From assembly GCA_018335695.1 (NCBI GenBank), contig JAGXRV010000057.1, positions 1 to 41,609 on the forward strand: DNA of 41,609 bases, given 5' to 3'. The notes beneath the pieces were generated by a model. It saw only the letters and a list, made by a program, of their open reading frames with translations. It did not search any database and had not been told where the DNA came from. This document shows positions 38,443-41,609 of this stretch, piece after piece (positions within the stretch are counted from its first letter, which is position 1; each line of letters starts with the position of its first letter). Origin of the DNA: Clostridium sp. GTDB lineage: Bacteria; Bacillota; Dethiobacteria; Dethiobacterales; Dethiobacteraceae. The position numbers and the translations under genes are program-made.

Positions 38443-41272
38443 GTCGCCCCCCGCGCGGGGGCGTGGATTGAAACCTATAAGAGTAGGCGTATGTCTATCG
38501 GTTGTGGGGTCGCCCCCCGCGCGGGGGCGTGGATTGAAACCGGCTTCACCAAGTTTAGTCACTTTAACGCCGGAAAGCGAGGTCGCCCCCCGCGCGGGGG
38601 CGTGGATTGAAACCGGCGGCAAGCCGCCACTGTTCCGGCGGTAATGCTGGGTCGCCCCCCGCGCGGGGGCGTGGATTGAAACAAGCCGGGCACTTGATAA
38701 GCTTGAGCCACACTTTGGTCGCCCCCCGCGCGGGGGCGTGGATTGAAACGTGTGGCTGTACTACCACCTCGAGAAATCGCCAGGTCGCCCCCCGCGCGGG
38801 GGCGTGGATTGAAACGAGATGACGGTCTCCAGGAGTACGAGCCGCCGACACAAGGTCGCCCCCCGCGCGGGGGCGTGGATTGAAACGAGTGCGGTTTGAA
38901 TCAAGTGAAAAATTGTTTGAGGTCGCCCCCCGCGCGGGGGCGTGGATTGAAACCGGGAACAAAGGTTATAACGGAGTTAGGCATCGCGTCGCCCCCCGCG
39001 CGGGGGCGTGGATTGAAACGGTTGCAAGGCACGACCAGCAGTTGGAGCATTCAGGGTCGCCCCCCGCGCGGGGGCGTGGATTGAAACACGCTAGTAATAA
39101 ACGGCAGGCCGCTGCGCGTACGGTCGCCCCCCGCGCGGGGGCGTGGATTGAAACATCCAGATCCGCGCCCGGAATCTTGCCGTGGCTCGGTCGCCCCCCG
39201 CGCGGGGGCGTGGATTGAAACGGTCTTGACATCACGACCGATGAAACTGCCGCTAGGTCGCCCCCCGCGCGGGGGCGTGGATTGAAACCCCGACGAAATC
39301 GACAATTTCGGAAAAGCTCACTGGTCGCCCCCCGCGCGGGGGCGTGGATTGAAACGACGGAGCTTGCCAATTTAAAAATCTGCCCGCCTGGGTCGCCCCC
39401 CGCGCGGGGGCGTGGATTGAAACCGGCAGCAATGCTGGAGGTTATGGGTGGCTGGGGGTCGCCCCCCGCGCGGGGGCGTGGATTGAAACCGCCGGCCATG
39501 CTGGAGGTAGTACCTGGTTCTGGGTCGCCCCCCGCGCGGGGGCGTGGATTGAAACACAGGCATGGCCAAAAGAGAAAGCCGCCACTGTGTCGCCCCCCGC
39601 GCGGGGGCGTGGATTGAAACCTGGTGGCAGCCGCCTGGTTCCGGCGGCAATGCTGTCGCCCCCCGCGCGGGGGCGTGGATTGAAACACCGTCTATCGGTG
39701 GATAAAATCCGGAGAATTAAGTCGCCCCCCGCGCGGGGGCGTGGATTGAAACCCTCTTAATTTCGGCAGGTTTGTCCCTCTTTGAGTCGCCCCCCGCGCG
39801 GGGGCGTGGATTGAAACTCCATTTCTACCCACTGATACCTTAAACCCTCAAAGTCGCCCCCCGCGCGGGGGCGTGGATTGAAACTCTCCGGAGTCCACCC
39901 CGGAACCCACACATCAACGTCGCCCCCCGCGCGGGGGCGTGGATTGAAACCCGCCAAGTATCTGCCCCGATTAAAGTTGGAACATGTCGCCCCCCGCGCG
40001 GGGGCGTGGATTGAAACTTACTACATCGCCGACCACCGGTAAGCCTCCACCGGTCGCCCCCCGCGCGGGGGCGTGGATTGAAACCGGCGGCAATGCTGGA
40101 GGTTATGGGTGGCTGGGGGTCGCCCCCCGCGCGGGGGCGTGGATTGAAACCCGGAGCAGAATTGTATCTGACCAATATTGCCCAGTCGCCCCCCGCGCGG
40201 GGGCGTGGATTGAAACGACACCAAAGCGACATCACCAACTCCTGACCGCCGTCGCCCCCCGCGCGGGGGCGTGGATTGAAACCTACCTCCACAACCCCGC
40301 CAAAGAACCTTTGCCCGGTCGCCCCCCGCGCGGGGGCGTGGATTGAAACCCCTGCACTACCGTCCCAACGGATAAGCAAGTTAGTCGCCCCCCGCGCGGG
40401 GGCGTGGATTGAAACCTACATATTCTTCCGGCCTTGTAGGCACATGGGGGTCGCCCCCCGCGCGGGGGCGTGGATTGAAACTAGGAGGCTATGTTCCGCA
40501 TGGGGGCAGGCGATTGTCGCCCCCCGCGCGGGGGCGTGGATTGAAACAGGTATCCGTGCTGATGGACGGCTTTTGGCTTGGGTCGCCCCCCGCGCGGGGG
40601 CGTGGATTGAAACGGTATTCGTGCTGACGGTAGGCTTTTTGCTTGGGGGTCGCCCCCCGCGCGGGGGCGTGGATTGAAACAAATACGAAGCGCAGAAGGA
40701 AGTCTGGGCAAAGGTCGCCCCCCGCGCGGGGGCGTGGATTGAAACACTGCTCACCCAGCAGCGGAAAAGAGAGTTGCAAGTCGCCCCCCGCGCGGGGGCG
40801 TGGATTGAAACGCTCGAGGCAGGGCACACCAACATGCAGATGGCGGTCGCCCCCCGCGCGGGGGCGTGGATTGAAACATAAGGCAAGCTTTGCTTTTGCA
40901 TAAACTCATAAGTCGCCCCCCGCGCGGGGGCGTGGATTGAAACCGGTATGCATTAGTTGAATCAGATGATATGGACAGTCGCCCCCCGCGCGGGGGCGTG
41001 GATTGAAACTCCCAATCAAGATTAATGCAACCAGAGACTGAAAGTCGCCCCCCGCGCGGGGGCGTGGATTGAAACTCCGATACAGGCGGCATCTATCCAG
41101 TGTGCTTTGTCGCCCCCCGCGCGGGGGCGTGGATTGAAACATCAAAGCAGCAATTTGCCGTTTGGGAATTAAATCGTCGCCCCCCGCGCGGGGGCGTGGA
41201 TTGAAACTATGGGGTCTAATATCAATATAGAAAAGGTTTCGTCGCCCCCCGCGCGGGGGCGTGGATTGAAAC
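38443..41272 (+). CRISPR. Type I-C CRISPR array, 43 repeats and 42 complete spacers
   Basis: The repeat is 32 bp: GTCGCCCCCCGCGC followed by GGGGGCGTGGATTGAAAC. All 43 copies read as identical by eye, including the last. The inner palindrome (GCCCCC...GGGGGC) forms the crRNA hairpin and ATTGAAAC the 5' handle region. Spacers are 33-37 nt except spacer 2 (38541-38581, 41 nt) and spacer 6 (38816-38854, 39 nt). Spacers 15, 16, 18, 25 and 3 are mutually related, and 32 and 33 are related. Open frames on both strands here are repeat translations, not genes. Confidence 0.98.
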
Positions 41273-41302
41273 TTTTATCGCAAAAGGCTTATTATTTTCT
41301 AC
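41273..41302. other. Interrupted terminal spacer (candidate)
   Basis: Thirty bases follow the last repeat before the left end of the IS66-type element. This is just short of a normal spacer (33-35 nt). If the element inserted within a spacer, the last 8 bp (TTTTCTAC) would be its target-site duplication, and the array would resume beyond the element. Confidence 0.55.
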
Positions 41303-41358
41303 GTAAGCGTCAAATAGTACCCACCTAATAGGATTAAAAGTTGAACATCATAGAGAAA

Positions 41359-41374
41359 CCCACCGTGCGGTGGG
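41359..41374 (-). terminator. Terminator hairpin after the IS66 transposase
   Basis: CCCACC-GTGC-GGTGGG forms a strong hairpin just after the transposase stop. Read on the minus strand it is followed by TTTCTCT. Confidence 0.6.
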
Positions 41375-41387
41375 CAGTCTTCAAGAT

Positions 41388-41609
41388 TTATTTATCTAGG
41401 CTACACTCGGCTGGCAACAACTTGGACCAAGGCAGCAGTTCATCCAAGGCGCTTGGATCAGCAATATTAATGTTCGGTAATTTTTCAAAAAGATAAACCA
41501 GATAGTTGTATGGGTTTAACCCGTTTGCCTTTGCAGATTCAACTATGCTATAGATTGTTGCGCTAGCTTTTGCACCTTTTGGCGTATTAGAAAATAACCA
41601 GTTTTTCCG
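41388..41609 (-). CDS. IS66-family transposase (TnpC), C-terminus (partial)
   Basis: The minus strand from the window edge to TAA (41390-41388) encodes 73 residues beginning RKNWLFSNTPKGAKASATIY, then ESAKANGLNPYNYLVYLFEKL and a final DELLPWSKLLPAEC. This is the conserved end of IS66 transposases (NWLFxxTPxGA, SLIETAKxNGLxPYxYL, LLPW). The DDE catalytic domain lies outside the window, so intactness cannot be judged. Confidence 0.93.
   Translation of the reverse strand, partial: RKNWLFSNTPKGAKASATIYSIVESAKANGLNPYNYLVYLFEKLPNINIADPSALDELLPWSKLLPAECSLDK

Follow-up and report, generated by a model that had tools for sequence, protein, structure and literature searches.

The window analyzed here comprises the whole of contig C57 (41,609 nucleotides), one of the 101 contigs of a 2.35-Mb draft genome (G000), and contains a CRISPR-Cas locus followed by the end of an insertion sequence (Table 1). 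The gene order cas3-cas5-cas8c-cas7-cas4-cas1-cas2 in an operon adjoining the array identified the system as type I-C. All seven cas genes were open and full length, and their products showed Pfam matches to Csd1 (Cas8c), Cas7, Cas5, Cas4, Cas1, Cas2, and Cas3. Besides the complete operon, the locus resembled type I-C systems in its 32-bp repeats ending in GATTGAAAC and in its spacers, which were mostly 33–36 nt long. All 43 repeats were identical to GTCGCCCCCCGCGCGGGGGCGTGGATTGAAAC, and the 42 complete spacers ranged from 33 to 41 nt, with 32 of them being 34 or 35 nt. Compared with type I-C CRISPR-Cas loci, the apparent interruption of the array was the sole unusual feature. The window terminates at 41609 because the contig itself terminates there, 307 bp into an IS66-family element.

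Table 1. Features of the CRISPR-Cas locus and the adjoining IS66-family element in the window.
Feature	Position	Strand	Basis or remark
Type I-C cas operon	30223–38274	+	Pfam matches, ORFs
cas3	30223–32598	+	
cas5	32611–33363	+	
cas8c/csd1	33360–35261	+	
cas7	35215–36123	+	
cas4	36207–36917	+	
cas1	36937–37968	+	
cas2	37984–38274	+	
Leader region, cas2 to first repeat	38275–38442	+	Almost identical in sister genome G003
Visible part of CRISPR array (43 repeats, 42 spacers)	38443–41272	+	
Last visible repeat, same as all others	41241–41272	+	
Putative 30-nt remnant of 43rd spacer, 3–11 nt short	41273–41302	+	Length compared with the 42 spacers
TTTTCTAC, presumed first copy of 8-bp target duplication	41295–41302	+	8-bp duplications of related elements
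IS66-family element, terminal 307 bp, tnpC side	41303–41609	-	Contig end cuts element
Terminator-like hairpin just past tnpC stop, toward array	41358–41375	-	Fold z-score only -1.47, weak by shuffles
tnpC 3' end, 73 codons and stop	41388–41609	-	IS66 C-terminal domain

The assignment of the element to the IS66 family was based on its C-terminal domain and on inverted terminal repeats beginning with GTAAGCG. The IS66 C-terminal element (PF13817, 4e-16) was detected on the minus strand of 41391–41609, and GTAAGCG was located at 41303, directly after the tail of the array. Among 44 related copies examined, 12 (about 2.1–2.5 kb long) had GTAAGCG...CGCTTAC as their ends and were flanked by exact 8-bp duplications, and several related copies possessed both ends without the duplication. 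Because PF13817 lies on the minus strand and relatives are bounded by these same termini, the terminus at 41303 is genuine, in agreement with the first-pass annotation of this DNA, which had read GTAAGCG as the end of an IS66-family element. Alignment to complete relatives showed that the visible part corresponds to the last 0.3 kb of the element. Such relatives were present in many Bacillota genomes, and the nearest tnpC C-terminus found was 79% identical (UBA7523). The element thus shares with the IS66 family the GTAAGCG terminus and the tnpC C-terminal domain on the visible end; its catalytic domain would lie beyond the contig end. TnpB on the complementary end (contig C51, described below, which may be a different copy), a length of about 2.4–2.5 kb, and the 8-bp duplication, known here from copies in relatives, would also fit the family. 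Only the tnpC-side end of the C57 copy is visible.

The tail between the last repeat and the IS terminus (TTTTATCGCAAAAGGCTTATTATTTTCTAC) was shorter than all 42 spacers, which confirmed the earlier reading that less than one spacer separates the two. It follows a perfect repeat, and the next repeat would lie outside the contig; position and length suggest that the tail is a spacer. Given its 30 nt and the 33–41 nt of complete spacers, a remainder of 3–11 nt, most often 4–5 nt, is expected beyond the element, rather than the 0–5 nt proposed previously. The GC content of the tail was 27%, compared with 30% for the lowest complete spacer, and the distal spacers neighboring the tail were also AT-rich. 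A search of IMG/VR yielded no protospacer for the tail, comparison with phage sequences gave chance-level matches only, none of them convincing, and the tail was absent from the arrays of both sister genomes. Three patterns derived from other spacers likewise matched nothing, so the protospacer test has little power. A promoter-like arrangement across the last repeat and the tail (TTGAAA-18-TATTAT) was rejected as being no more than chance.

The distal ends of related arrays were compared with that of the window. Two sister genomes of the same genus, G001 and G003, carry the same repeat, and the cas1 genes of the two were 98% and 94% identical to that of the window; in both, the cas genes and the distal array end are located on separate contigs. 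The terminal repeat of G003 had two mismatches at its 3' end, and a variant repeat stood two units before it. In G001, a rearranged terminal repeat was preceded by a variant a few units earlier, and the G047 array, with 86 repeats, closed with one that was a single base off the array's own consensus. Hence, the claim that a distal end usually has a degenerate repeat held in all three relatives with a visible distal end. Terminal repeats are likewise modified in 86–100% of cases in Escherichia coli and Salmonella (PMC2886076). By contrast, the last visible repeat of the window was, as had been noticed earlier, identical to the rest. No spacers were common to the window array and the sister arrays.

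We searched the assembly for the far side of the element, and neither a far-side junction nor a second repeat block was found. At up to three mismatches, the array repeat occurred in the 101-contig assembly only on contig C57; the IS66 catalytic domain was absent from the entire assembly; and 41303 was the only IS66 terminus in the assembly flanked by TTTTCTAC. The assembly holds one other IS66 terminus, at 543–563 of contig C51. This terminus is the complementary, tnpA-side end, with its first 22 bp identical to those at 41303, and a TnpB fragment (PF05717) lies at the start of C51, although this copy may differ from that of C57. The flank of the C51 terminus consists of CTTTGAAC and the 5' part of a transposase gene, which we take to be of the IS256 family; this gene is intact on contig C64, and part of another copy is present on C93. 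Its flank differs from TTTTCTAC, and C51 and C57 therefore do not represent opposite sides of a single simple insertion. This flank and sister gene order, which points to contig C87, leave C51 only a secondary candidate for the far side. Positions 1–716 of C51 (L026) thus show an IS66 end nested in an IS256-type transposase gene, beside a pilin gene.

In both sisters, the contig with the distal array end runs into an MFP-RND-TolC-TetR gene cluster (gene names assigned by reading ORFs). This cluster is immediately preceded by a VapBC-like pair in G001 and, in G003, by a sulfate-assimilation cluster. In G000, the RND sequence begins precisely at the C87 end, about three quarters of the way along the gene; its 5' part is missing, as is the MFP gene. 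Sister gene order therefore suggests that the array and C87 are adjacent in this genome. Because the RND remnant lies at the C87 end and the array adjoins MFP-RND in the sisters, the far side appears to fall in an assembly gap, which, judged from this gene order, extends from the IS66 element to C87 and would also hide distal repeats. Since the stretch beyond the element is a real gap, the lack of distal repeats in the assembly proves little.

A run of 43 perfect repeats followed by a tail shorter than a spacer is unexpected at a natural end and argues for a cut inside the array. We consider it probable that the IS66 insertion cut spacer 43 and that older repeat-spacer units lie beyond the element. 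The earlier proposal that the element truncates the array inside a spacer is thus sustained by the exact IS end, the short tail, the perfect last repeat, and the degenerate ends of relatives, and the array likely continues past the element with a duplication of TTTTCTAC. The repeat at 41241–41272 could instead be the true last repeat, with the element having landed by chance no more than 30 nt downstream of the array. The absence of further repeats from the assembly and a tail whose AT content exceeds that of every spacer and which has no known phage match agree with this, but it would require a perfect terminal repeat, unlike those of relatives and of E. coli and Salmonella (PMC2886076), as well as an element landing less than a spacer's length from the array end; we regard this explanation as improbable. 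An assembly chimera at the array-IS66 junction is far more doubtful still: the contig does end inside the element, whose interior is missing from the assembly, but the junction coincides exactly with the IS terminus, which is what a real insertion should produce.

An alternative is IS-mediated loss of the distal array part. In this scenario, the IS66 element entered the array and the distal part was then lost through an IS-adjacent deletion or recombination between IS66 copies, leaving unrelated DNA on the far side, such as the IS256/pilin region of C51. In its favor, the complementary IS66 end on C51 is suitably oriented, the assembly contains two IS66 termini only, as expected from one rearranged copy, and the two flanks differ (TTTTCTAC and CTTTGAAC). 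Several related copies have both ends but lack the duplication, and recombination between IS copies deletes CRISPR blocks in Mycobacterium tuberculosis (PMC7708916). On the other hand, the MFP-RND genes follow the array in both sisters, and the RND remnant of G000 ends C87, not C51; the homologous pilin cluster of G003 runs for more than 4 kb into more pilin genes without repeats; and a second insertion, into an IS256-type gene whose intact form is present on C64, accounts for the C51 copy. We therefore consider such a loss rather unlikely.

Under the preferred reading of an insertion into spacer 43, an IS66-family element of about 2.4–2.5 kb containing tnpA-tnpB-tnpC would have transposed into the spacer and split the type I-C array. 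Beyond the element would lie TTTTCTAC, the 3–11-nt spacer remainder, and the older repeat-spacer units, followed by a degenerate terminal repeat and the MFP-RND operon, with its 3' part on C87. Because the 42 leader-proximal spacers are still joined to the leader and the cas operon, they would remain usable, and acquisition and interference should go on. The distal, oldest spacers would be severed from leader transcription, with leader transcripts entering the element antisense to tnpC. The first-pass annotation had suggested that the distal part might gain transcription from the IS; this found no support, as the tnp genes read in the direction of the visible array and hence cannot drive the distal part. 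The terminator-like hairpin following tnpC (41375–41358) may stop tnp transcripts heading for the array. A scan of the 563 bp at the complementary end (C51) detected no promoter-like site facing outward. A far more speculative notion, to which we give little credence, is that the distal block might persist as a second, leaderless and cas-less array, with its old spacers retained and expressed from outside, or be lost via IS66 recombination, with IS insertion setting the depth of memory.

Arrays interrupted by IS6110 and by an IS21-family element are already known, and the window would represent the same kind of event. The CRISPR system of M. tuberculosis is of type III-A, differing in type from that of the window. 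IS6110 splits its CRISPR (DR) locus in two, and IS-driven loss of spacer blocks occurred in some lineages (PMC7820667, PMC7708916). The likeness consists in a single array being divided in two by an IS; IS6110 differs in belonging to the IS3 family, in being usually inserted in a repeat, and in its 3-bp duplication. In Xanthomonas citri pv. citri LG097, an IS21-family element (ISRso19-like) is located inside spacer Xcc_18; the interruption was first noticed because contigs of draft assemblies stopped at the IS ends, and PCR then established the far side (PMC6889575). LG097 thus resembles the window in having an array split by an IS within a spacer and a contig break at the IS, and differs from it in the family (IS21 versus IS66) and in that both sides were sequenced rather than one side being known. 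In a partial literature search, no title or abstract described IS66 in an interrupted array; the present case would extend the families known to interrupt arrays from IS3 and IS21 to IS66. The count of 42 spacers is probably a minimum, and where an assembly breaks at a mobile element, the oldest entries of a CRISPR record can go unseen. The view of how type I-C systems work is unchanged.

Several further features of the locus and its relatives were observed. Within the window array, three pairs of spacers were closely alike, namely 15/25 (39424, 40085), which were one base apart, 32/33 (40548, 40614), and 3/18 (38614, 39621), as if repeatedly acquired from variants of one phage region; the patterns tried for them gave no match in IMG/VR. 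The sister arrays shared one diverged spacer, AGYAAGTCGCGTATRTCCTGCCC... (L076 spacer 33 and L077 spacer 9), which held the seventh position counted from the distal end in each array, with differing neighboring spacers. The match between G001 and the window broke inside cas2 shortly before the contig end (L044 8757–8882), where the G001 cas2 may be disrupted. The sulfate-assimilation cluster of G003 (L076 2668–8496) was only 77% identical to that of G000 (C89 50768–56606), whereas the cas region of G003 was far more similar to that of the window, which could reflect horizontal exchange. Finally, short imperfect tandem repeats with 92-bp and about 47-bp units were located between genes of the window at 24667–24989 and 29630–29770, alongside short dispersed repeats that occupy intergenic sites repeatedly in this genome.
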